28,752 nt of DNA from a virus, in IMG/VR virus record IMGVR_UViG_3300036770_000824, positions 1 through 28,752 of that record; one strand, written 5' to 3'. Within the stretch, counting starts at the first letter, position 1. Every line of letters starts with the position of its first letter. The notes beneath the pieces are model-generated. The model searched no databases. It had not been told where the DNA came from and saw only the letters and a program-made list of their open reading frames with translations. Made by a program: the position numbers and the translations under genes. Below are positions 8,962 to 28,752 of the stretch, piece by piece.

Positions 8962-8986
8962 CCCCGCGCCCTGCGGGGATTTTTTT
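8962..8986 (+). terminator. Rho-independent terminator for the plus-strand block
   Basis: The stem CCCCGC (8962-8967) pairs with GCGGGG (8973-8978) around loop GCCCT. It is followed by A and seven T residues (8980-8986). The T-run ends on the stop codon of the convergent giant gene. On the minus strand the hairpin is not followed by a U-tract, so it would act mainly on plus-strand transcripts. The rest of the 74-base gap has only a weak 5-bp hairpin (8913-8926). Confidence 0.88.
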
Positions 8987-11900
8987 CACTTCAGCATTCC
9001 TTTCTTCTTGAGCGCCGCAGTTAGCTCAGCGTCAGGGACATCATCGTACTCAGGGTATTTCTTCCGCACTTCTTCAAGCGTCATCTTGGCGGGGGCAGCA
9101 GGTTCTTTCTCTTTTGTCTCAAGCATATGCCCCAAACGCCCGATCAACCGCTTATCGATTCTTGCACCGACTGCCTCGGCTTGGGCGATATCTTCGGCTC
9201 GCTTGTCAAACGAGTTTTGAATCTTTTCTGCAAGACTGCCACTCTTCGGAAGTAGCTGAGGCTCTTTGCCGTAAAAATCGATAGCAGCTTCCAAAGCTGC
9301 TTCATAACCTTTGTCGTTATCACGTTCAAGCCACAGGCGGTTTAAGATTGCAGTCTCTTTAGATTTCAGCGTAAGCTCAGCCTCTTTGGTTTGGATAGCG
9401 CGTTTCTGCTTTAGCGCTAACTCTTCAGGTTGCAACCCAATCGCTTGCATCGCAAGCATCCACCCAGAAAAATCTTCAGGAGCAATCTGGGTCTCACCAG
9501 ACTTGGTCACCGCCCCTTCAGTGCCGTAACGGTAGGCTTGCATGGGCTTAGCAAAAAACGCAGGGAGTATCTTTTCCCAAGCGCGTTGATAGTGACCTTC
9601 GTTAAACAACTTAGCAGCCTCGGCCCAGTTTATACCCATGCCAACTACGGGACCGGCGTTGGCGATTACGTCTTGGATCAGCCCTTCTACGATATCTGGC
9701 GAATACCGACCATCACGATAGAAGAGATTCTTGGGGTCTAGACTGACACGCTCAGAGATGCTGCCTTGCACAGCTTGAGATATAGGCCCCCGTGCAAACG
9801 ACATGCCGCCCATCCACTCACTAGCCCATCGACGGAACCAGTTCAGATAGTTGAACAACTCATCGTCTTTCTCATCGTCTGAAGCCAGCATTGCAGCCAT
9901 GATTGGCATAACGATCCAGAAGAAAGGCATGGCTTCTAGCCCACCAAACAAGAAGGTTACGCCAAGAATACCTGCAAGTTCTTTACGTGCTTGGCTACCA
10001 ATATCGCTACGGAACTCTTTTATCTCGTCAATCCTGCGATCAATCTCAGTTTGCGATAGGTTTTGTTTTGTAAAGAACTCTCGGATTTCATCAATCTCTT
10101 TCTTGCTGTACGGACGCAACCCTAACTGCAATGCACGCAGGTAGTTGTACGTTGCCATAACAGCGTACTGCTTAAACTTTAAGATGACGCTCAGTGGAAC
10201 ATTAGCAAACAGTCTGGACTTCATCTGTCGGCTAAAGTCGCCAAGGGTTAGCCCTGCGATATGTTTTGCCTCTTCGATAGCAGCTTCGAAAGCTTCATCG
10301 GGGGTGTAAGTTACTGGGTTTCCGTTAGCATCGCGCTCAATAACGCCTCGTGTATCGCGCTTAGGTTCTGCAAGTAACCTGTCGTACTCAAGCTCAAACG
10401 CCGACATCAGCGCAACTTCGCGGTTAGCACGTTCTGACTGATGGAACAGCCCGCCAAGAATCTTTTTCACGACGTTATAGCGCGTGGTGTACAGCTCAGA
10501 TGGGCGGTCACTTAGATCAAAGATATCGTTGGTCAGGCTGATGTTGACCTGCTCTTCAGCAACAAATCGATCTGCTGCACGTTTTAACAACGGCGAAAGA
10601 TTAGGACTCTCGACGATAGAGGGGAACTGCATTTGGGACACCAAACCTTTTGCAGCAGGCTTGAGTGTGCGCCCAGGTGCTGTTTGCCAGTACCGCCCCA
10701 TGTTCTTGAGCATGGTTTCACTAGCTTTGGTGTAGCCGTACTTACCACCCAGCTTCGAACCAGCAAACACAGCAAAGCCTACCGTGTTAAGCAACGCAGT
10801 AAACGGTGCAGAGAGCATCGTGAAAAACACTAGTGAGCCAGCGGCACCTGCGGCTTTTGCCAGCAGCGACTTATCCTCAGCGCTCAAGATAGTCTTAGTG
10901 CGTGCTTCTAACTCGTTAATATAATCTCTATAAACTTCACGAGTGTCAGGCTTGAAAAACTCTTTGACGTAGTCCCGTGCTTTGTTAATGTTGTTGATGA
11001 AATCTTCGCTGTATTTAAACCGAGCCATTTGATAGGCGTTGTGCACCGCAACATCGGTGAACACCCGCAGCATGTCACTACTTGCACCTTGGATAGCCTT
11101 ACGATTAATGAACATCTTCCGCATGCTCTGCTGCGGCAACATGATGTAAATCAACTGGTTAAGACTGTCTTGTAATTCATCACGTACATCTTGGGCTGTC
11201 TTAGTAGCCGCTGCACCAACAGGCGGAATGATGGAGTCAATAAGCTCCTGCACTTGTTTTAGTATCTGCGTAGATGCTAGGTTCTTGGAGAATAGCTCAG
11301 AGATACCACTGCCTGCTTCCACTGTTTCGGCAAGTGCTTGTTGCTTGGCGTTGCCAGCTTTCAGTTCACGTATCCGTGCACGACGCGAAAGCTCACGCGT
11401 TATTTCACTTTCAAACTCGTAAAACTCTTTGAAATTACCTGAGCCGACTTGGAACCAGTACTCACCAAAGCGGCGTAACGGGAAGTACGGGAACACCAAC
11501 TTATCTGCCGCAAACTGTTCATTGATCTTGCGGATAGCTGCTTGACGTTCAGCTTTGGGCAGCTTCAAGACCCGCTTCTTCATCTCGCGGATCATCTCTT
11601 GCAGGTTGTTGTAGAAATAGTTTCTAACCCTGCGGTAAATATCTTTGAACTCAGGGTCAAGGCTAGCCCATGCAGCATCAAGCTTTGGCAACCCTGTCGG
11701 CCCTTTGTCTGGATCTTTGCCGTTAATGGTGGCATCCAGCATGATTTTGCCAGCCAACGTAGACTGCGCTGGTTTCTTGTTCTGAGCAGCAACCCAATCA
11801 AGTGCGATGGTTTGTGCTTCTTTTAGCTTAGCCAGCCGATACGAAGTCATTTTGTCTACGATGTTGATCGCAGTGGCTAGCTGTGGGAACTTAGTACGTG

Positions 11901-14900
11901 TAATGTCTGCAAGCTGCCGTAATGTTGCAGCGAACAAAAAGGCTCGGCGCAGTTTACCGTTTGCTGGGTTCCACAGTGCAGGGCCTAATTCACCTATCGC
12001 TTTAGCAAACGGAACGCGACGTTTGAACGCATCGCCTATGGTGCTACCAAGGGTTTTGGATATGTCTTCAACTGAGCGCCATTTAGACGCACCACTGATA
12101 GGACCGCGAACGGGTTTACGCCTACGTCCCGCAACGATAGGAGGCTGTGGCGGTTGTTGTCCTGGCGGAGGAGGTTGCGGTGGCGGTTGCTGTCCTGACG
12201 GAGGAGGCTGAGGAGACGATGAAGTACTAAAGGATATCCAGCCTTGATCTTCTACATCACCATCTTCTCCAGCTCTTCCACTGACTTCGCCTTCACTAAG
12301 GGCTTCAGGTCTTTGTACACCTGCGCCCCTTCTGGGTCGTTCTCCTGCTGATACAGCCTTAGCCTCGTCTCCAGCGCCGCTTCCAACTCTTCCTTCCGGT
12401 AATCTGGAGGCGCTCCGCTCGTAATCCTCAAGAGACTTTCCAGTGTTAATAGTTGTAGATTTTCCATATTCTTCCTTCATGGCACTAAAAGTCGATTCGT
12501 GCCGCACTAATATATCTAATATAGCGTCCCTAAAGTAGTCAAGCATACCTTCATCTGCAAGGTATTGCTCAACTTTGATCATGTTGGTGTTATGCCCAAC
12601 TCCATGAGACATATCCCCCGTATGGGCTATTTCATGGATCATGGTGTTAAGTATGACTTGGCGAACGCCAAACAAAGACTTTGACCCCCAATCATAAAAA
12701 GGATTCACATACACTGCTTTGTACGGAACTCTTATATGCACCCCACCGTATTTTTTATCGATGCTTATACCGGCAAAAAACAAATTATCCGGTTTTAAAA
12801 CGTCGTAACCGTAAATCCCGCTGTCTGCTAGTAGCTCTTTCATTTCAACTAGCAATGTGCCTAGCTCAGCAAAGAATCCTACGGGATCGCCATAAGGCTT
12901 CCCAACGTCGATAAGATCTACATTAACGTTGGAGTGAAAAGCAGGAGACTTAGGATCTTGCACCATTGAAAGCATGTACTTTTCTCTGGTGGGAGCTGCT
13001 TCATCCGCTTTAAAACTTTCCTCTAACAAGCGTTCCGATTTAGGCTCATTAGATGTAATGACGCTACCTTTTGTGTTTACAACGACCGACTGCCCCCCTT
13101 GCGGCAAGATCTTGACGGTAGTATCAATAGCCGGTTTAACAGGCGTAGATTTTTCTGCGGCAATTCTGCGCTCGTTGAATAGCTTTACTAATTTGTCAGA
13201 CGATTCCTTAAGATCTTGCCCCCCTTCTAAGCGAGGAAGCATAACAATTTTCTTAAAGTTATCCTGCAATTCTTGCATTTCTTCGCCACGGGCAATCATG
13301 GCGAGATAACTATTAAGTGCCTTTATGTCCTTTTCATGCGTCGGTTTAAAACGCTCACGTTCATAAGTAAAAGGATACTCAGGAAGTTTGGCTGCTACTT
13401 TAGGTTTAATGTTAACGACGATGTCAAACGGGATTGTTTCAGTTTGGGACTTCATAAACCTTTGATTAAACTGATACACACCGCTTGATAAAATGTAGTG
13501 GGACGGATATTGCAAAGGGTTTATACCAAAATATACGTCTGCTTCGCCCCACTCAAAGTCAATTTTAAGTTTCCTATATTTATCGTGGGGGAAATTGGCC
13601 CCCACTTGGGGTGTTTCTTTCCTACCGTCTATTGAAAATTCTATTTCTACGTTATCGTGGATAAGAGGGTAGTTAAAAAAAGTTGTATCTTCTAATCTCC
13701 ACGGAAACCATATATAAACGGTCTTACCAAAACTATCAACAAACGACTCAGGTACAGTCACCGTCGTCGTTGTACCGTGTTCTTTTTTAGGCGCAGGGGT
13801 GCGTTTAGCGGTGAAATCACTTCTTATAATATTTATTGCGTCTGTATCTACAACGATTCGTTTCCCGTCACGTACAGTGTTCACATAGTAATGATCTACA
13901 GCGGTCATAAAAGCGTATTTGGCCTTCCCAAAACCTCCGCTGGTTTCCCCAGGAGGCATATCACCTTTATCAGATCCTTCTCCAGTAAATAACGCATTGT
14001 CTACAGTTTCCTCACTCATACCAGAGCCGTTATCAGTCACTGTTATTGTGCGTTTTTCAGAATCTAAAGCTATTGATATTTTTCCTTTTTTAATGGTGCC
14101 TTCGTACATAGCCCGTTTAACGCCGTCAAAGGCATTTTGCGTTAGCTCTTTAACAGCAACTTGTGCTAAAGACCCCCCATACATCTGAGCGCCATGTGCC
14201 TTAATGACTGCTTCGCTATCAACCTTAAACTGCATTTTCTTCTCCCCAAAACCGTCTTTGGTAGAGAAAGAAATGTTAGCGTTGGTATCAGGGCGCGACA
14301 CTAGCTCCAGTTTTGCAGAAGGTACCTTTACGTATGACTTCGGGTTTTTCATCGTATCTGGGCGGTAGCGCACCATGTTGCCTTCTACACCAACTACTAC
14401 ACCTGGAGTATTGCCGTACCTAACAATGTCGCCCATCAAAAAGCCTGACGCCATCTTGTCTATGTTCTTTTGGATGGTGTCGTTTAACGCATCAACCTCT
14501 TTAGGATTTGCAGGTTGTAAGTTAAAGTCTGTAGGCGGCTGCTCGTTTACACGGACTGCGTCATCAACGGGAGGCGTTGCATCCTGTGCGCTTTCTTCTA
14601 GTTTATCCAGAAGCTCTCGGATTTTAGCTAAGTCTTTATCTTGTTCAGCATACAGCTTAGTAAGCTTATCCGGCGAGAAAGTCTTGTAGTTTCTGTCTTG
14701 CGCGAGCCTCTGGCTTAATATGCTATATCCACCTGCACTAATAATAGTGCCCAGCCGATACAACTCTTTAATTTCTTTGGGCGCATTTGTGCGTATGGTG
14801 GCGCCGTCGTAAGGCATAAAGCCTGCTTGACGTATCGCATCGTTGATATCCGTAATAGCTATATCAGTATTAGCGAGGGTTTTGCCAGCAGGCGCTAAGC

Positions 14901-17148
14901 CCTTGGCTTGCTGTTTAGTGCTTGTTTCTTTAATGTACTGATCTAATATTAATCTTTCTCTTGGGGTATTACTACGCAACGTATCCCGCAAAGTATTTGT
15001 TGTCGAAATTGGCTCTGCTTTAGCAGGAGTTTCAACCTTTTTTAGCTTTTCCGTAGCAAAATCAACAGTCTCTTGGGTGCTAGGCTTTTTAGTCCGCATC
15101 GGACCTTGCAACCGCGTAAGAATACCTTCCCCAAAAGTTTTGCCACCAGGGGTTTGTAGCAACCGTTGAGCTATATCGTATTCTTGTTGTTCAAAGGTAT
15201 TGAACGGGGCAGCGGGCTCAGCAGGGACGGCAGGTGCTCTTGCAGCTTTTTTTCTTTTAGCAGGCGCTGGTTCTCTCGGCGCTTCTGCTTCGACGGTTTC
15301 GGTGGGCGTAGGGGCACTAACAATCTCCTTTTCTTCGTTCTTTAACTCTTCTAATGCCAAAATTACTTCTTTACGGATTCTTACGTCATCTACACCTACT
15401 TTATTTTTTCTGTACGGCTCCACTATTTTATTAAGTGAATCAACATCATCTTCCGTATAGACTGAATTACGTTTGATCCCCATTTCTATCAATTCATTTA
15501 ACTCTGCTCCGTATGTGGGGTCATACGTCGTAAGCTCTTCAGCTAGTTCGCGTAGCTGCTGAGGAATACTTTTTGGTTCCGGTGCGGGCTCTTCTAATGC
15601 AGGTAACGGCGCTCCTTCTCCCACTGGAGGCGCAGCAGGAGTTGGCGTAGGGACTCCCACTGGAGACTGCTCAGCTCCTGTAATTCCTTCGGGGGCGAGA
15701 GTTCGTTCGGGTCTGTTAGGTACTGGAAGGCCCTCTCCACTAAGTGTAGGGGTAGGTCTTCTATCAGGGGGTACGACAACATCACGCTCTCCTTCTCTTA
15801 AAGTAGCCGCTGCTTTACGTGCACCCGTAGTAGCTAATGCAGCCGTACCTGCAACCCCACCAATCGTTCCGGTCTGCATCACAGTCTGCAAGACCGTGTC
15901 GGCTAACTGTTTAATAAGGTCGGTAGCAGTAGCTTCTTGCCTTAACCCTATCGGTAATTTCTCGATCCCAAACTGAGTCGCAGTAGTTGCCATCTCTGCT
16001 GGCACTTCTTTAGCGATGGCTTTACCAAAGTATTTACCAAGGAAGTCGGCAAGCTCATCAGTGCGTACGCCTTTGGCTGCGGCACGGACCCCTGCGATTT
16101 GCTCAGACAAACCAAACCGAGAGAAATACAACTCCGCACCCGTTAGTAGCGATGCGCGTACCGCAGCTTCAGAGGCAGATTGACCCTCACGTTTACCTTC
16201 AGAGTACGACTGACCAAATGTTGTTACGCCGATATTAGCTAAAACTGGAAGGGCCGTACCGGTAAAGAAACTTGCTACAAGTCCAGGCCCTTGCTGAGCA
16301 AGTGAACCAAGCATGTTCTCAAACTGGTCAACCATAGGAGACCGACTCTTAGGTTCACCAAGCTGCTGCAAAAATGCTTCAGATTTTTTACCTACTTGCC
16401 CGTAGTAGTTAGCAGCCTCTTCGTTACCTGTTAGGTCAGCTATGGCTTCTGCTGTACCCGCAGCTCCTTGTTTAAGTCCTTGACCTGCACGAGCTAGTGC
16501 CCTGCCAGCAATACCTTCTTTGCGAGTATCGAGCGCTTCAACTGCTTCGGGAGATGGCTCTTCGGCTACAGCGAGTGCCCTCGGCCCCATACCCCGCTCA
16601 ATCTCTTGTTGGGCTATGAGGTCTGCAACTTCATAGTTAGCGCCTTGTTTGACAAGCTCTTCTACTCTTGCTTCGCGTCTAGGATCTAGCTTCTTAAGCG
16701 ATGGCGCTGTAGGCTTAAAGCGCCCATACTCAGCATCGATAGCACGAACCACATTACCAACGTAGTCGGTGCGTTTAGCTAAAACCTCTCGTTGTTGAGG
16801 CGTAGCCATGTCGTACATAGCTCGTATTTTTTCGTACTCCTTCGGACTGACAGGAGCACCCCGCGTCTCTATCGGCGCAGTCGGCTCAGGCGTAAAGCCC
16901 TCCATCACAGACGCACGTCTAGAAGGCGCAGGAGCAGGCGTGATGGGTGCAGTAGCAAACGCCGACTCAGTACCAGTGATGGGTTCAGGTTGCGCGAACG
17001 ACTGGGCGGGGGTGTATCCGACCTTGGTGTAATACTCTTCTCTAGAAAAATCAGAAGCGTAAAACTTATCGTACAGGCTATCCGCTAACTGCTTGTCAGA
17101 AATATCATTGTACTGAGGATACTGTTTACGAAACTCATCAAGTTTCAT
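8986..17148 (-). CDS. Giant polyvalent internal virion protein with Hsp90-like ATPase and metallopeptidase
   Basis: 2720 residues, last gene of the virion operon; its ATG shares one base with the previous stop. It begins LDEFRKQYPQYNDISDKQLAD and ends with a related motif (LEEVRKKYPEYDDVPDAEL). Segments in order: Gly/Ala-rich helices with a possible membrane segment (about 277-345); a Pro-rich linker (about 460-540); an Hsp90/GHKL ATPase with ELTQNAFDG (Asn1005), TDNGSGMS (Asp1039) and SGGFGKAK (about 1070-1077); and a zinc-peptidase motif HEIAHTGDMSH (1505-1515). Then come a Pro/Gln linker (about 1643-1670), a long helical region, and hydrophobic stretches near 2103-2136 and 2388-2423. Giant multidomain proteins of this kind are described as polyvalent proteins. 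They are thought to be packaged and ejected into the host, where their enzymatic domains act. Boundaries are approximate. Confidence 0.88.
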   Translation of the reverse strand: MKLDEFRKQYPQYNDISDKQLADSLYDKFYASDFSREEYYTKVGYTPAQSFAQPEPITGTESAFATAPITPAPAPSRRASVMEGFTPEPTAPIETRGAPVSPKEYEKIRAMYDMATPQQREVLAKRTDYVGNVVRAIDAEYGRFKPTAPSLKKLDPRREARVEELVKQGANYEVADLIAQQEIERGMGPRALAVAEEPSPEAVEALDTRKEGIAGRALARAGQGLKQGAAGTAEAIADLTGNEEAANYYGQVGKKSEAFLQQLGEPKSRSPMVDQFENMLGSLAQQGPGLVASFFTGTALPVLANIGVTTFGQSYSEGKREGQSASEAAVRASLLTGAELYFSRFGLSEQIAGVRAAAKGVRTDELADFLGKYFGKAIAKEVPAEMATTATQFGIEKLPIGLRQEATATDLIKQLADTVLQTVMQTGTIGGVAGTAALATTGARKAAATLREGERDVVVPPDRRPTPTLSGEGLPVPNRPERTLAPEGITGAEQSPVGVPTPTPAAPPVGEGAPLPALEEPAPEPKSIPQQLRELAEELTTYDPTYGAELNELIEMGIKRNSVYTEDDVDSLNKIVEPYRKNKVGVDDVRIRKEVILALEELKNEEKEIVSAPTPTETVEAEAPREPAPAKRKKAARAPAVPAEPAAPFNTFEQQEYDIAQRLLQTPGGKTFGEGILTRLQGPMRTKKPSTQETVDFATEKLKKVETPAKAEPISTTNTLRDTLRSNTPRERLILDQYIKETSTKQQAKGLAPAGKTLANTDIAITDINDAIRQAGFMPYDGATIRTNAPKEIKELYRLGTIISAGGYSILSQRLAQDRNYKTFSPDKLTKLYAEQDKDLAKIRELLDKLEESAQDATPPVDDAVRVNEQPPTDFNLQPANPKEVDALNDTIQKNIDKMASGFLMGDIVRYGNTPGVVVGVEGNMVRYRPDTMKNPKSYVKVPSAKLELVSRPDTNANISFSTKDGFGEKKMQFKVDSEAVIKAHGAQMYGGSLAQVAVKELTQNAFDGVKRAMYEGTIKKGKISIALDSEKRTITVTDNGSGMSEETVDNALFTGEGSDKGDMPPGETSGGFGKAKYAFMTAVDHYYVNTVRDGKRIVVDTDAINIIRSDFTAKRTPAPKKEHGTTTTVTVPESFVDSFGKTVYIWFPWRLEDTTFFNYPLIHDNVEIEFSIDGRKETPQVGANFPHDKYRKLKIDFEWGEADVYFGINPLQYPSHYILSSGVYQFNQRFMKSQTETIPFDIVVNIKPKVAAKLPEYPFTYERERFKPTHEKDIKALNSYLAMIARGEEMQELQDNFKKIVMLPRLEGGQDLKESSDKLVKLFNERRIAAEKSTPVKPAIDTTVKILPQGGQSVVVNTKGSVITSNEPKSERLLEESFKADEAAPTREKYMLSMVQDPKSPAFHSNVNVDLIDVGKPYGDPVGFFAELGTLLVEMKELLADSGIYGYDVLKPDNLFFAGISIDKKYGGVHIRVPYKAVYVNPFYDWGSKSLFGVRQVILNTMIHEIAHTGDMSHGVGHNTNMIKVEQYLADEGMLDYFRDAILDILVRHESTFSAMKEEYGKSTTINTGKSLEDYERSASRLPEGRVGSGAGDEAKAVSAGERPRRGAGVQRPEALSEGEVSGRAGEDGDVEDQGWISFSTSSSPQPPPSGQQPPPQPPPPGQQPPQPPIVAGRRRKPVRGPISGASKWRSVEDISKTLGSTIGDAFKRRVPFAKAIGELGPALWNPANGKLRRAFLFAATLRQLADITRTKFPQLATAINIVDKMTSYRLAKLKEAQTIALDWVAAQNKKPAQSTLAGKIMLDATINGKDPDKGPTGLPKLDAAWASLDPEFKDIYRRVRNYFYNNLQEMIREMKKRVLKLPKAERQAAIRKINEQFAADKLVFPYFPLRRFGEYWFQVGSGNFKEFYEFESEITRELSRRARIRELKAGNAKQQALAETVEAGSGISELFSKNLASTQILKQVQELIDSIIPPVGAAATKTAQDVRDELQDSLNQLIYIMLPQQSMRKMFINRKAIQGASSDMLRVFTDVAVHNAYQMARFKYSEDFINNINKARDYVKEFFKPDTREVYRDYINELEARTKTILSAEDKSLLAKAAGAAGSLVFFTMLSAPFTALLNTVGFAVFAGSKLGGKYGYTKASETMLKNMGRYWQTAPGRTLKPAAKGLVSQMQFPSIVESPNLSPLLKRAADRFVAEEQVNISLTNDIFDLSDRPSELYTTRYNVVKKILGGLFHQSERANREVALMSAFELEYDRLLAEPKRDTRGVIERDANGNPVTYTPDEAFEAAIEEAKHIAGLTLGDFSRQMKSRLFANVPLSVILKFKQYAVMATYNYLRALQLGLRPYSKKEIDEIREFFTKQNLSQTEIDRRIDEIKEFRSDIGSQARKELAGILGVTFLFGGLEAMPFFWIVMPIMAAMLASDDEKDDELFNYLNWFRRWASEWMGGMSFARGPISQAVQGSISERVSLDPKNLFYRDGRYSPDIVEGLIQDVIANAGPVVGMGINWAEAAKLFNEGHYQRAWEKILPAFFAKPMQAYRYGTEGAVTKSGETQIAPEDFSGWMLAMQAIGLQPEELALKQKRAIQTKEAELTLKSKETAILNRLWLERDNDKGYEAALEAAIDFYGKEPQLLPKSGSLAEKIQNSFDKRAEDIAQAEAVGARIDKRLIGRLGHMLETKEKEPAAPAKMTLEEVRKKYPEYDDVPDAELTAALKKKGMLK
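12225..14275 (-). other. AT-rich ATPase-metallopeptidase cassette inside the giant gene
   Basis: This segment encodes about residues 958-1641. The same pentapeptide ISFST sits at each end, from different codons. Four 60-base rows inside (13321, 13621, 13681, 13861) give 38, 33, 35 and 40% GC by hand count. Three rows outside (11461, 11521, 16321) give 53, 50 and 47%. The composition shift and the self-contained domains suggest that the cassette was acquired separately from the rest of the gene. It need not be mobile now; no inverted repeats or target duplications were seen. Confidence 0.5.
12252..12467 (-). CDS. Possible overprinted gene inside the giant gene (uncertain)
   Basis: An alternative frame on the same strand encodes 71 residues, starting MENLQLLTLESLLRITSG and ending KSVEELEKMVM. 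A good ribosome-binding site (AAGGAAG) lies just before the ATG, and the frame is closed by TGA 12 bases upstream. The peptide looks globular and helical. The giant protein in the same DNA is Gly/Ala/Glu/Arg-rich and disordered-looking. Against it: G dominates its third codon positions (well over half), which is expected if it merely shadows G-first codons of the main frame, and the AAGGAAG also encodes Lys-Glu-Glu there. It is possibly real, possibly chance. Confidence 0.3.
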   Translation of the reverse strand: MENLQLLTLESLLRITSGAPPDYRKEELEAALETRLRLYQQENDPEGAQVYKDLKPLVKAKSVEELEKMVM

Positions 17149-19479: not shown

Positions 19480-22400
19480 TTACCTCGGCATAAAGCGTTG
19501 AGCGTCAATTTCACGCCCTTGTTTTTTAGTTCCGGTTCTTGCTTTGCGAACACGGTCCATCATCTCGTAAAGAATCTTTGCACCAGCACTAGAATTACCG
19601 TTACCAAGATGACTAACGACATCAGCAGGAATAACAAACTCCCCATCAGAAAGCGCAGCAGGGCGCTTACCATCGATATGAGCCGGTACTCTATCTGCCA
19701 TCCCATCTGTAATTCCGCCTAAATATCTAGGTGGAAGTGTACGCCCACCACGCGCTAGAGACAACAGGCCACCGTAAGCAAGCCCCCCACCGGATGTATC
19801 GACACCTGCACCATCTACCGTATCGGTATCAGTGCCCCCTGCTGGGGAAGGCTGTACACCAGCACCTAAATAGCCTGCCGGAGGCGTATATACGATAGGG
19901 CCAAAACGTTGGAAGTAGGGATCTTCGTAGCCCACGGTGTCAGCTCCGGCGTAGTCATAAGTATCAGGTGGTTTAGTATAACTGCGCGATGCAGTGAAAG
20001 GCTGCGTTAGGTTAGGTGTGTAGGAAGCAGGACCATCACCGCCCGTTGTAAGGTTTGTAAATAAACTTGGCAAACCAATAGGATCAAACTCGCACTTACC
20101 CGTTTTGGAACTGAAGGTATACCCCGTTGGGCATTCAGTGATGGTGTCGTTACCTCCACCGCCTTTAACTGTAGTTTCAGGAGTGCTGCAAATTTGACCC
20201 CCAGAAACAGGATCGTTTAAAACAACTTGTCCTTCTGGACATACGCAATTACCAGCAGCGTCGCGTATTTGGCCTACAACTGGGCAAGCCTTAACTTCTA
20301 CAGAAGGTTTGCATTCACCATTTTGTTCTTTAGTTCCTGGAGGGCATACACAATCACCAGCAGCATTACGCGTTTGGCCTACAACTGGGCAAGTATCATC
20401 AATTATTGTCGTTGTGTCTTGACACATACCACTTGCATTGGGCGCTTGGTCAGGGTCTATGCAGTAGCAATTATCATCGGCGCCTTTGTATTGATCTTCA
20501 TTGCATTTTTTAGCAGTAACTGTTGTAGACGCTTTGCACGAACCATCTGCTTGTTCTGTAGTTCCTGGAGGGCATACGCACCCACCGTTTACATTGTCAC
20601 GGATCTTAGGAGGTATGCAAAAAGTATCTACGACCTTTGTTGAAGTTACTGGTGGTGGGGTAGGTGTCTTTGGTTTAACTGTTGGTAATTTTGAAATATC
20701 GACCCGTTCAACACATTTGTTTTCTATGGGGTCGTAGTCCATATCAATCTTGTTGCAATCAGCCGCAGTTACTGTGACTGATCCCGTACTACCTGTGCCA
20801 GTACCCGAACCATCTAATGCGACGTAATCAATCGGATCATAACAACCGCCTGTTATGGGGTCACGGATTTGATTGGGGTTCTCACAGGGATCAGAAGCGC
20901 CTGTAACTTCTACAGCCCCAGCGTTGATTGAATCATTACCCGAACCACTTGTAACGAGATCGTTATACCCACCAAGATCGATGTAGTCGGATATGGTGTC
21001 GCCAATTGAATCACGGGCTCCTGTTACGGAAACGCTTGGGTTCTTTGCTTTGTACTCATTAGAGCCTTTGAGCGCGTTAATAATGTCATCTAGCCCAATG
21101 CCTGTAGCTTGCCAATAATCTAACCCAGCATCATCACCCGCACGCCCAAGAACCTCTAAATACGCTCTGTTTATGTCTTCTCGTGTAGGTTTAGCAGTAT
21201 CAGCACCCGCTCCAACAGTATCGGCGCCAGAACCACCTGTAACGTTTGCCTTTTTACCATCACCATCACCAAAACCAGAACCTGCAAAGAAATCCGTAGT
21301 ATTAAATTGATCAAGAGGGTCAACGTCTGCTCTAACAACGACTTCACCAGCGGCATTGTTCAGTGCATTTGAGGCGTCAGAACCATCTAAAAAAGAATCC
21401 TGAATAAGTTCAAGCGCGTCGTCACCCGTCAGTTTAGTACCGGGAATTTTTGTATCGCCAAAAGTGCCCATGAAGGCGCCAATACCTGTATTGCGAAGAA
21501 TATCGTTGCTATCGCCACCAGCAATCGCCGTTGTTATTCCAGCCGTGGCTCCTTTAGACACACCGACAGAAAGCTTATCGGTTAACTGATCGGTTATCCC
21601 AACCTCGCTAAGTCCCCTATCTGCGAGATTTCTAATTAGCGAAGTAAAAGATACATCTTTGTTAGTGCCCAACAAATCAGCAGTACCCGGAATGGGTAAC
21701 TTATCAAGCGCCGTTCCAACAAGAGTACCCACCGCGCCTTGCTTAAAGTCGCCACCGAGCAACTCTGATGTAACGCCATTCACAAAAGCGGCAGCGCCGG
21801 TTTTGATTAAAGCTTTTTCTCCAGCCGATAGTAAAACTTGGTCAGCAACCCCCGGTAGCATTTCAACTCCGGCAAGCGCATTACTATTTATGGCGCCAAC
21901 AATGTAATCAGTGATTGTGTTGGTGATGGGTCTAGTAACAACCTGCAAGGGGTTTGTAATTGCACTTGCTGCTTCGCCAACTGTGAGATTGGACGCTAAA
22001 TTAGCGTTTAAGCTAGCAAGCCCTGCATTACTTCCCGCAGCCGCTAACTCGGCACCGGGGGCGAGCGCCCCAGCATTAGCTTCTAAAAATGCAAGTTCTG
22101 ATGCACCTGCTCCTGCTCCGGCTGAACCGCCCAAAGAACTTAACAAATCTCCTGCACCAACCGCAGCGCCGACAACCCCTAACGCCTGTAACCAGCCTTG
22201 TGCTTCTGACGGATTAGGTGATGCTAATCGAGTAGTTGTTGGGTTTCCGTACGCGTCATACTTTTGTACAACGTATTTGTCACCCTGAACGCCAATAATT
22301 TTTTCAGTTTCAACGTCATCGCCTCTGTCTAGCTGACGTATGCCTGTATCAGTACCAAACGTGCGCTGTACATCTCCAGTCAGCAAAGTGCCAAGAGGTA

Positions 22401-22581
22401 TGCCTGAATCACGAAACAGTTGTTGAATATCACCTGTTGATACACCTTTGAACGAGGCGAGATCGTCTGCGCTTAAACCAAATGATGTAGCGATTTTCTG
22501 GAGCTTAGAAGCATCATTACCCGCAGCCGCAATCTGCTCACGAATAATGTCATCTATATAACCAAGGCTGGAAGTCGCCAT
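19480..22581 (-). CDS. Large virion protein with DUF4214-like segment and cysteine-rich tandem array
   Basis: 1033 residues, GGGGTAAGG before the ATG. Residues about 1-460 are Gly/Ala-rich with possible amphipathic helices. Residues about 467-513 (REDINRAYLEVLGRAGDDAG...YW) fit DUF4214 (pattern YLxxLGRxxDxxGLxYW), found in secreted and surface proteins. Short Gly/Asp motifs (GGSGADTVGAGADT, SGSGNDSINAG, GGGGNDTIT) resemble RTX calcium-binding repeats. All 22 cysteines lie in about 558-835 as a seven-unit array. The C-terminal 100 residues (DGMADRVPAHIDG, then ALSDGEFVIPADVVSHLG) form a motif-rich domain shared by virion proteins of related phages. It is probably exposed or ejected; a role in contacting host surface structures is an inference. 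Confidence 0.82.
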   Translation of the reverse strand: MATSSLGYIDDIIREQIAAAGNDASKLQKIATSFGLSADDLASFKGVSTGDIQQLFRDSGIPLGTLLTGDVQRTFGTDTGIRQLDRGDDVETEKIIGVQGDKYVVQKYDAYGNPTTTRLASPNPSEAQGWLQALGVVGAAVGAGDLLSSLGGSAGAGAGASELAFLEANAGALAPGAELAAAGSNAGLASLNANLASNLTVGEAASAITNPLQVVTRPITNTITDYIVGAINSNALAGVEMLPGVADQVLLSAGEKALIKTGAAAFVNGVTSELLGGDFKQGAVGTLVGTALDKLPIPGTADLLGTNKDVSFTSLIRNLADRGLSEVGITDQLTDKLSVGVSKGATAGITTAIAGGDSNDILRNTGIGAFMGTFGDTKIPGTKLTGDDALELIQDSFLDGSDASNALNNAAGEVVVRADVDPLDQFNTTDFFAGSGFGDGDGKKANVTGGSGADTVGAGADTAKPTREDINRAYLEVLGRAGDDAGLDYWQATGIGLDDIINALKGSNEYKAKNPSVSVTGARDSIGDTISDYIDLGGYNDLVTSGSGNDSINAGAVEVTGASDPCENPNQIRDPITGGCYDPIDYVALDGSGTGTGSTGSVTVTAADCNKIDMDYDPIENKCVERVDISKLPTVKPKTPTPPPVTSTKVVDTFCIPPKIRDNVNGGCVCPPGTTEQADGSCKASTTVTAKKCNEDQYKGADDNCYCIDPDQAPNASGMCQDTTTIIDDTCPVVGQTRNAAGDCVCPPGTKEQNGECKPSVEVKACPVVGQIRDAAGNCVCPEGQVVLNDPVSGGQICSTPETTVKGGGGNDTITECPTGYTFSSKTGKCEFDPIGLPSLFTNLTTGGDGPASYTPNLTQPFTASRSYTKPPDTYDYAGADTVGYEDPYFQRFGPIVYTPPAGYLGAGVQPSPAGGTDTDTVDGAGVDTSGGGLAYGGLLSLARGGRTLPPRYLGGITDGMADRVPAHIDGKRPAALSDGEFVIPADVVSHLGNGNSSAGAKILYEMMDRVRKARTGTKKQGREIDAQRFMPR
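20080..20910 (-). repeat. Cysteine-rich tandem repeat array (seven units)
   Basis: Each unit has C-x11-13-C. The four central units continue with a CxC and x10-16-C (for example CVCPPGT...C), while the outer three keep only the first pair, giving 22 cysteines in all. Units are joined by short beta-like linkers (VTVTA, TTVTAK, SVEVKA). Two neighbouring units share 21 identical bases (20268-20288 and 20373-20393), 105 bases or 35 residues apart, so the array is still expanding or homogenising at the DNA level. Confidence 0.85.
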
Positions 22582-26480: not shown

Positions 26481-28130
26481 TTACAACGCTGGGATCTTAA
26501 TAAATACAACACCAGAACCCCCCGCAGCGTTTCCTCCTCCACCGCCCCCGGTGTTAGCTACGCCACCTGTAGACGGAGTTGAAGGTGCAACGGCTTTAGA
26601 CCCATTACCACCCGAAACCCCCGGAGTGCCTGGACCACCAATACCTGCCAAATCTTTCCCGGCACCGCCTCCCCCACCAGCATACGTAACAGGGCTTCCT
26701 GAAATTGATGATGTCAATCCGGCCCCGCCATTTCCACCATAACCTAATGCAGGGCTTGGAGGAAATACGTATTGTGCATTTGCACCGGGACCTCCGGCTC
26801 CACCACCCCCTCCGCCCGATTCTACGAGCACTCCCAAAGGCGCTGGACCGCCCCCACCATTTCCCTGTCCTGGCGTTCCTGAACCTCCTGGCCCAGGAGC
26901 ACTTTGCCCAGCACCTCCTCCAGAGCCCCCATTACCCCCACTCCGCTGAGCTGCGGGTTGAAAGGTATCAGCTCCACCACCTCCGCCGCCGTCGGCTGAT
27001 ACTAAAGTTGCTGAAGGTGTAGCAATTGAAGACGTTCCGCCTTGGCTACCCCTAGCAAATAAATTTGTGCCGCCCCCACCACCAACTGTGATGGTGTAAG
27101 TTAACCCTGGTTCAACAGCTAAGGCTGTCCCTTGTACAAACCCACCCGCGCCACCACCGCCAGACCCAGCCCCTCCATATCCACCACCACCCCCACCAGC
27201 AACGACTAAATATTCCACTGCGTAAACATCAGGGGGGCACGTCCAAGTGCCAGATGCTCTGAAAGGAGCAATTGAATTGCGCGTTATCGTGTATTTTAAA
27301 ATAATTACACCGCTGCCACCTGATGGGGTACCATAACCACCGCCAGCGCCTCCACCTGTTTGAGCAACACCGGGTGTAGCGTTAATAAATACCGGACCAC
27401 CACCCGGCCTATAACCCCCGTTACCACCCGAAACTCCGGGAGTTCCTGGGCCACCTATTCCACCCCCAATTGGGGCGCCACCATCGCCACCCCCACCACC
27501 GCCCGAGTATGTAATTGATGACCCACTCAGTGAATTTACCGTACCATTCCCGCCACTACCACCAACACCGCCCCCATTATTGCCACCCCCGCTTGCTGAG
27601 CCACCACCACCCCCACCTCCGTCATAGGAGTTTGGTGAACTTCCAGCCCCACCACTATTACCTTGCCCTGGAGTGCCCGCACCACCAGCAGCCCCTGTAA
27701 AACCAGCAGTCCCCCCACCCCCTGATCCGCCAGAAGCCCCGTTACTAGGTACACCAAACCCACCGGGGTTAATACCACCTCGACCGCCGCCCACAGCAGT
27801 TGTAAAACTTGTTACTGGCGATGGTGCAGTTAATGATGAATTGTTACCATTTGACCCACCGCCACCCCCTCCGCCCACAGTAACGGTATATGTAACACCG
27901 CCTGTTACAGGAAACCCTGTACCAGCAACGTATCCTCCGCCGCCACCGCCACCGATGCTACCTGAAATACTTGAGTTTCCTGAACCACCCCCGCCAGCGA
28001 CTATTAAATAATCAACAGTAAGCCCATCATAAGGTGCGGTCCACGTTGTTGATCCGGTAAAAGTAATAACTTCTGTAATAAGTGTATTACTTAAACCCTT
28101 GTTAAACAGCGTTGCTAAGATGCCTGTCAT
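26481..28130 (-). CDS. Glycine-rich tail fibre or adhesin with duplicated domain
   Basis: 549 residues from the ATG at 28130, which overlaps the upstream stop as ATGA. The longer frame begins with TTG at 28154 and is less likely. Two copies of a module are visible: TTWTAPYDGLTVDYLIVAGGGG near residues 25-50 and GTWTCPPDVYAVEYLVVAGGGG near 292-315. Each is followed by over 100 residues of Gly-rich repeat (GGxG, GTPGQGN). GGPGTPGVSGGNG occurs in both halves. Glycine-rich phage fibre domains form stacked polyglycine-type helices and can bind host receptors. The coding strand is extremely G-rich (C-rich on plus). It is probably the distal receptor-binding part or an accessory fibre. Confidence 0.85.
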   Translation of the reverse strand: MTGILATLFNKGLSNTLITEVITFTGSTTWTAPYDGLTVDYLIVAGGGGSGNSSISGSIGGGGGGGYVAGTGFPVTGGVTYTVTVGGGGGGGSNGNNSSLTAPSPVTSFTTAVGGGRGGINPGGFGVPSNGASGGSGGGGTAGFTGAAGGAGTPGQGNSGGAGSSPNSYDGGGGGGGSASGGGNNGGGVGGSGGNGTVNSLSGSSITYSGGGGGGDGGAPIGGGIGGPGTPGVSGGNGGYRPGGGPVFINATPGVAQTGGGAGGGYGTPSGGSGVIILKYTITRNSIAPFRASGTWTCPPDVYAVEYLVVAGGGGGGYGGAGSGGGGAGGFVQGTALAVEPGLTYTITVGGGGGTNLFARGSQGGTSSIATPSATLVSADGGGGGGADTFQPAAQRSGGNGGSGGGAGQSAPGPGGSGTPGQGNGGGGPAPLGVLVESGGGGGGAGGPGANAQYVFPPSPALGYGGNGGAGLTSSISGSPVTYAGGGGGAGKDLAGIGGPGTPGVSGGNGSKAVAPSTPSTGGVANTGGGGGGNAAGGSGVVFIKIPAL

Positions 28131-28752
28131 GATAGGTTGCCCGAAAGTAAGCAAGTATCGGCTGCTGTAAACATGACGGAGGCTATGCCATAAGCCGCTA
28201 ATGAAACAGAGCTTTTGTCAGTAGTAGTTCCAGCTATAAAAGCATTGGTGATATTCGTTGTAATCGTTTTAGCGGAGTTGGTGTTATTTACAATCACAAC
28301 TACATCCCCTGCCGCAAACACCGAGTTATTAATAGTCACCTCACCACTTGCGCCTAATTGAATAGACTTACCAACATCGCCAGCCACAAGCGTGTAGTTT
28401 GATGTTTTCTCAGCGCCTCCTGTAAGTGGCGTACCTTTATAACCTGCTGTGAAAGTTTCTGCGGGTAGCGTGACGTTTGTTGTACCTGTTGTGGTCATCG
28501 TCAAACTATTGCCACCCGATGTTATGAGAGACGACCCGTTTGCAAGCGTTAATGTCGCGGATGATGCCGGTGCTGTAATAGTGACTTTGTTCAGACTTGT
28601 AGCAGTTGCCACACCAAGCGTCGGTGTGACAAGCGTTGGGCTTGTGGCAAAAACAAGTGAGCCCGATCCTGTTTCATCAGTGACCGCAGCGGCAAGATTT
28701 GCCGATGAAGGCGTTTGCATCCATGTGACTACGCCACTACCAAGTGATGTAA
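28127..28752 (-). CDS. Tail fibre C-terminal part (cut by window edge)
   Basis: The frame stays open from the window edge (TSLGSGVVTW before the first Met at 28720) to TGA at 28127-28129. TPSSANLAAAVTDETG followed by SLVFATSPTLVTPTLG is a very common repeat-like segment of phage tail fibres, usually in the middle of longer fibres. The C-terminal part (SNYTLVAGDVGKSIQLG, then VVVIVNNTNSAKTITTN) resembles fibre-end domains. The true start lies beyond the right edge. The 3' end overlaps the glycine-rich fibre gene by four bases, so the two fibre proteins are probably produced together. Confidence 0.85.
   Translation of the reverse strand, partial: TSLGSGVVTWMQTPSSANLAAAVTDETGSGSLVFATSPTLVTPTLGVATATSLNKVTITAPASSATLTLANGSSLITSGGNSLTMTTTGTTNVTLPAETFTAGYKGTPLTGGAEKTSNYTLVAGDVGKSIQLGASGEVTINNSVFAAGDVVVIVNNTNSAKTITTNITNAFIAGTTTDKSSVSLAAYGIASVMFTAADTCLLSGNLS

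Follow-up and report, generated by a model that had tools for sequence, protein, structure and literature searches.

Can a putative ATPase and a putative zinc peptidase that lie side by side in one giant phage protein be regarded as a single unit, and if so, what might such a unit do? The locus that raises this question is a 28.7-kb IMG/VR virus record, which at its full length (28,752 nucleotides) we call the window, and in which a minus-strand gene (8986-17148) encodes a 2720-residue product. The features on which the analysis draws are the following, with residues numbered along the giant.

8986-17148 (-): gene of the giant polyvalent protein, 2720 residues, at the end of the late (virion) operon and convergent with a DUF927 primase-like gene.
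14284-14466 (-): small segment before the module with GDIVRYGNTPGVVVGVEGNMVRYRPD, residues about 895-955, SH3/KOW-like by eye only.
12289-14268 (-): exchangeable GHKL-zincin module, residues about 961-1620, its edges placed where synonymous divergence from the relative L002 drops.
13729-14223 (-): predicted GHKL (Bergerat) ATPase domain, residues about 976-1140, from HATPase_c_3 and the model; intact in 77/77.
14122-14148 (-): N box ELTQNAFDG, residues 1001-1009 (Glu1001, Asn1005, Asp1008), invariant in 77/77.
14014-14037 (-): G1 box TDNGSGMS, residues 1038-1045, with Asp1039, Gly1043 and Met1044 in 77/77.
13918-13941 (-): G2 box SGGFGKAK, residues 1070-1077, with Gly1071, Gly1074, Ala1076 and Lys1077 in 77/77.
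13279-13728 (-): predicted S5-like transducer, residues about 1141-1290, with invariant Gln1226 and Arg1264, from the model and structure alignment.
12940-13278 (-): linker between ATPase and peptidase, residues about 1291-1403, model confidence low in part.
12448-12939 (-): predicted minigluzincin-like zinc peptidase (WLM/YgjP type), residues about 1404-1567, from profiles and the model.
12604-12636 (-): HEIAHTGDMSH, residues 1505-1515, with His1505, Glu1506 and His1509 each in 77/77 and His (74) or Glu (3) at 1515.
12109-12447 (-): Pro-rich, fast-evolving linker after the module, residues 1568-1680, dN/dS 0.32.
11527-11955 (-): LPD39 (large polyvalent protein associated domain), residues 1732-1874, Pfam PF18858, E 1.6e-9, above the cut-off.
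11464-11481 (-): PLRRFG, a PLxRFG signature, residues 1890-1895.

By these signatures the giant is a PLxRFG/LPD39 polyvalent protein, in which several unrelated predicted domains (LPD39, GHKL and zincin) share one long chain, and its C-terminal third matched a PHROG described as 'DarB-like antirestriction'. The segment containing GDIVRYGNTPGVVVGVEGNMVRYRPD travels together with the module in one subfamily, and residues 633-960, which include it, are mostly 43-58% identical across about a fifth of their length. At the extreme N-terminus, the first 28 or so residues (LDEFRKQYPQYNDISDKQLADSLYDKFY; window 17065-17148) have a similar motif at the C-terminal end (9001-9084, residues 2689-2716), where PHROG 302 (virion structural) overlaps it; the N-terminal type is also carried by proteins from phages of Vibrio, Shewanella, Thalassomonas and Pelagibacter that are 36-37 kb in size. 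This terminal motif may be a packaging or ejection signal.

The first-pass annotation had called the giant a virion protein. What speaks for this is the position of the gene, together with the LPD39, PLxRFG and DarB-like similarity, so that the label stands as a deduction from context rather than as a directly proven property. One of the same-strand neighbours upstream is a virion protein of the phage stabilisation type (PHROG 3287), and in the related isolates DSL-LC04, HTVC027P, 023Pt_psg01 and Pra-JY27 the gene at the operon end likewise encodes a long protein, annotated as a DNA transfer protein in DSL-LC04, after which genes on the opposite strand follow; a DNA helicase lies directly or nearby on that strand in the first three. 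Pfam found no GHKL domain in the operon-end proteins of these isolates. Most of the IMG/VR loci that we fetched have window-type late genes upstream of the giant, a convergent DUF927 primase and SNF2 helicase downstream, or both; some module-bearing giants (L082, L084, L090 and L098, for example) are without such neighbours and seem to come from other phages. Late-operon position and polyvalent class together suggest that the giant is probably carried in the virion and injected, and the earlier proposal that the ATPase-protease may enter with the phage DNA agrees with its place in a protein whose class is believed to enter the host by injection. Elsewhere among the late genes, a 1033-residue protein (19480-22581) has one piece of about 80 residues that is 40-70% identical in most relatives, its remainder being diverged or replaced, as in receptor-binding or tail-fibre proteins, and 26481-28154 encodes a Gly-rich protein with matches to Gly_rich_2 and to a tail-fibre-assembly PHROG; GC there is about 55-58%, with a strong skew.

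Profiles and modelling both indicate that residues 976-1290 are a genuine GHKL (Bergerat) ATPase followed by an S5-like transducer. HATPase_c_3 matched residues 996-1109 (E=3e-7, above the Pfam cut-off) and was matched by 65/65 module members, while a BbrUII/HgiDII restriction enzyme model was matched by 64 of the 65; Hsp90/HtpG gave the best single family matches of the ATPase, at scores that did not reach the equivalog cut-offs. For the structure we used a model of the whole module as one chain, built from 65 sequences (mean pLDDT 80), in place of an earlier 12-sequence model that was poor in the peptidase. Together with HATPase_c_3 this model gives a Bergerat fold, with the N, G1 and G2 boxes present at the very residues that had been named in the first-pass annotation. 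In VIA-align, model residues 12-324 (976-1288) aligned with Hsp90, GyrB, ParE, TopoVI-B and MutL (Z about 18-19, about 280 residues), and since the aligned span covers both the ATPase and the S5-like transducer, it points to a GHKL-S5 unit as in Hsp90, MutL and GyrB. No MORC protein stood among the structures listed as matches.

The Hsp90 side of this alignment stops near residue 415-470, and in the giant the peptidase comes next. This bears on a rather improbable reading, in which the module would be a chaperone-protease of the producing cell, its ATPase folding or maturing the giant and its partners and its peptidase trimming them before packaging. The rank of Hsp90/HtpG among the family matches would suit such a role, as would phage P1 DdrB, which is cut prior to packaging (PMC5512222), but the peptidase sits after the S5-like part, where Hsp90 has the rest of its middle domain and its C-terminal domain, and the N4 virion RNA polymerase and its zincin are packaged uncut (PMC5512222).

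Residues 1404-1567 resemble, in profile searches and in the model, a zinc peptidase of the WLM/YgjP minigluzincin kind (Wss1, abylysin) with the signature HExxHx5H. HEIAH is the sole HExxH in the giant of the window, with a composition-based chance expectation of 0.011, and among 3000 shuffled controls none contained HExxHx5H or a GHKL-like triple. Zinc can be held by His or by Glu, and position 1515 was His in 67, Glu in 5 and Gly in 2 of the set retrieved with the ATPase half, the Gly cases having His one place further on. WLM was matched by 23/65 members (E up to 0.01, best 8e-6) and a YgjP-like model by 6/65, while a search with the WLM model gave no match to the window's own copy. When a peptidase-only profile was compared with solved structures, proabylysin (a minigluzincin) and two WLM domains ranked first, weakly (E 0.0095-0.022), with atragin (0.024) and other metzincins behind them. 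In the model, the core runs helix, three strands, HExxH helix, helix, with pLDDT in ten-residue blocks mostly 89-96, an order described for the zincins of polyvalent proteins (PMC5512222). Our VIA-align and Foldseek searches used the whole module, so that GHKL proteins filled the match lists and the listed rows say nothing about the peptidase. The spacing had earlier been described as close to that of metzincins: the motif at 1505-1515 and its His1505, His1509 and 1515 ligands hold good, but Gly1511 is G in only 30/77 modules, position 1512 (motif position 8) is mostly V, S, D or E, and the third ligand can be His or Glu. Metzincin membership was rejected on the unconserved Gly and on the profile order.

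The resemblance to WLM peptidases also bears on an unlikely alternative, in which an ATP-driven DNA clamp would, in the manner of MutL or gyrase, close around the incoming DNA or next to it, and a WLM/SprT-like peptidase would strip host proteins such as restriction or silencing complexes from that DNA. The GHKL-S5 fold matches GyrB, ParE, TopoVI-B and MutL as well as Hsp90, the restriction enzyme model is matched almost throughout the family, proteases of the Wss1 type clear DNA-bound proteins (PMC4559962), the GHKL part is common to phage rIIA, which is listed as counter-defence in a jumbo-phage review (PMC7824862), and genes engaged in conflict typically show cassette swapping. Against these points stands the short reach of the WLM similarity, some 30-60 residues surrounding the active site, together with its weakness when solved structures are searched (E about 0.01).

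Are the two domains one unit? A scan with the C-terminal part of the giant returned 24 loci, in which the giants have either GHKL followed by peptidase or neither; no complete giant among them had one half only, and every complete one carried at least one HExxH, so some peptidase seems to be needed. Searching IMG/VR with a profile of the module gave 147 relatives, of which 80 were kept, and with the earlier loci these made 77 distinct full-length modules. Scans with each half, in overlapping and so not independent samples, gave the same answer: among the best 80 of 127 confirmed loci found with the peptidase half the ATPase was also present in 80/80 frames, and among the best 80 of 198 found with the ATPase half the peptidase was also present in 79/79, with 69-178 residues between the two. 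The coupling suggested by the first-pass annotation is thus far stronger than could have been seen from one sequence. None of the 77 aligned modules, down to about 25% identity, has lost either active site, with Glu1001, Asn1005, Asp1008, Asp1039, Gly1043, Gly1071, Gly1074, Ala1076 and Lys1077 invariant in the ATPase, Gln1226 and Arg1264 in the transducer and His1505, Glu1506 and His1509 in the peptidase. Between the window and L002, dN/dS is 0.10 for GHKL-S5 and 0.04 for the peptidase. That the domains are dead remnants without enzymatic activity is hardly credible in the face of such retention of catalytic residues and such constraint. What is shown is one unit of two intact, constrained and consistently coupled predicted catalytic domains; their functional coupling we infer from this co-conservation. 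In many module-bearing giants (L020-L031 and others) a second zincin-like motif (e.g. FLHEVLHAATEA) lies about 300 residues past the HExxH of the module; the window is without it.

The module is not fixed in the giant. The loci L018 and L019/L033 are 75-76% identical to the window over the C-terminal part (L018 also 76% across the first 583 residues) and lack the module. At its place they have other segments with HExxH motifs, and L018 also LPD23, so that alternative cassettes seem to share one slot in close relatives. The giant of L018 (3821-12964) has weak ART and DUF6782 matches as well, and that of L019 (4307-12886) other HExxH domains at this place. The reverse also occurs: the module is 50-53% identical in giants whose C-terminal parts show no detectable similarity.

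Synonymous sites tell the same story. Between the window and L002, 37 of 278 four-fold sites differ in the module against 338 of 874 outside it (p 1e-16), with the edges of the drop near residues 961 and 1620, and the same pattern of a younger module was seen for L115/L116 (4/327 inside, 245/854 outside) and L045/L070 (19/266 and 245/588). Divergence was equal inside and outside in L047/L052 and L103/L108, and higher inside in L025/L024 (0.30 vs 0.12) and L095/L096. Ranking the pairs by the similarity of their modules favours younger-module cases and so biases the proportion of such cases, but not the existence of both directions. Uniform synonymous constraint was rejected as the cause of low module divergence on the pairs that are equal or higher inside; a difference that is lower, equal or higher depending on the pair fits exchange by recombination and does not fit a general constraint. 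On synonymous divergence and absence from close relatives, then, the module is exchanged between phages as one cassette. The varied company it keeps in other carriers (InPase, LPD1, LPD5, MutS_I and RadC in L083; ART and LPD38 in L106) indicates that it is shuffled among polyvalent architectures. In the giants of L082/L083 and L090, which have 4080-4429 residues and belong to other phages, it is combined either with InPase, LPD1, LPD5, MutS_I and RadC or with a region that weakly matches ddrB-ParB.

Base composition had been read earlier as the mark of a recent foreign insertion. The low-GC segment itself was roughly right, the module having 42.9% GC against 49.1% in the remainder of the gene, and 600-base windows falling as low as 40%. 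It does not serve as a mark of recent insertion, since the module is lower in 76/76 relatives (mean difference 4.9 points); with third-position GC at 0.34-0.43 in the window module, near the 0.39 of the giant's own N-terminal part, this points mainly to amino-acid composition and not to import. A recent insertion marked by low GC is accordingly very improbable; the exchange is real, but is visible in synonymous divergence.

What might the unit do? The reading we prefer, which we would give an even chance, is that the giant travels in the virion and enters the host together with the DNA, where ATP binding by GHKL-S5 would close a dimeric clamp and the closed clamp would switch or feed the peptidase. 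GHKL-S5 units such as those of Hsp90, MutL and GyrB bind ATP and dimerise, and since nothing in the head of a phage generates ATP, contact with ATP could itself signal arrival. The peptidase would first cut the giant itself in its variable linkers, perhaps in the Pro-rich linker 1568-1680 as candidate processing region, freeing its domains after arrival, with host proteins as possible later substrates. The zincins of polyvalent proteins have been argued to process those proteins (PMC5512222; Iyer et al. 2017), and Wss1, a WLM peptidase, cleaves itself on activation and acts on DNA-bound proteins (PMC4559962). Some polyvalent proteins have a zincin and no GHKL domain, which means that processing does not in general require ATP, and in many module-bearing giants the second zincin could do the processing, leaving the module peptidase for host targets. 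The stricter version, a virion protease that ATP would switch, off in the ATP-poor capsid and on in the cytoplasm, where it would cut the giant and perhaps also host proteins bound to the entering DNA, is tentative and on the doubtful side. Action on host defence complexes is possible, self-processing being at least as likely.

For the question of what processes the giant proteins that phages inject, and what sets the processing off, a strictly coupled unit of about 640 residues, present in many uncultivated phages and swapped as a cassette, offers something concrete and expressible to test. A peptidase gated by ATP would amount to an arrival sensor within a virion protein; one that acts on host proteins would be a new type of counter-defence protease. 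The coupled, mobile ATPase-peptidase module appears undescribed: we found no description of a GHKL and zincin pairing in the databases and open papers searched, where polyvalent proteins, GHKL ATPases, rIIA-type proteins and WLM peptidases and other zincins are already known. The text of the paper defining polyvalent proteins (PMC5512222) has no mention of GHKL, Hsp90 or HATPase, and the jumbo-phage review (PMC7824862), alone among the papers searched in containing both 'GHKL' and 'zincin', uses GHKL of a topoisomerase and of rIIA. By tblastn with the queries used, the module was not found in isolated phages or plasmids of the collections searched, where only GHKL-only matches such as rIIA and HtpG were returned, and the single module match in cellular genome contigs (L120) lies on a phage-like contig. 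The viral protein BFVD A0A516L4L2 (1404 aa), which carries no name or recorded function, matches the module in structure from end to end (E 2.5e-40, TM 0.68).

Among known systems, Hsp90/HtpG, GyrB, ParE, MutL and TopoVI-B share the fold of 976-1288 and the catalytic boxes, but their C-terminal parts were not seen in the module, which has the peptidase instead. T4 rIIA-type proteins are likewise phage-borne, with an N-terminal GHKL ATPase and a proposed counter-defence role; they are stand-alone genes beside rIIB of about 710-730 aa (three examined) with no HExxH in the sequences read, whereas the ATPase here is joined with a peptidase inside a giant late protein. With the WLM, YgjP and abylysin minigluzincins (the Wss1 and Spartan group) the module shares the HExxH helix, a third ligand six residues past the second His and the pattern T-M-[IV]-H-E-[LI]-A-H, and differs from them in that the third ligand is Glu in a few members. 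Finally, the giant is like the phage polyvalent proteins (PLxRFG/LPD39/DarB-like; Iyer et al. 2017) in its multidomain form, LPD39, PLxRFG, late position and internal zincin, and unlike them in the constant pairing of its zincin with a GHKL ATPase.
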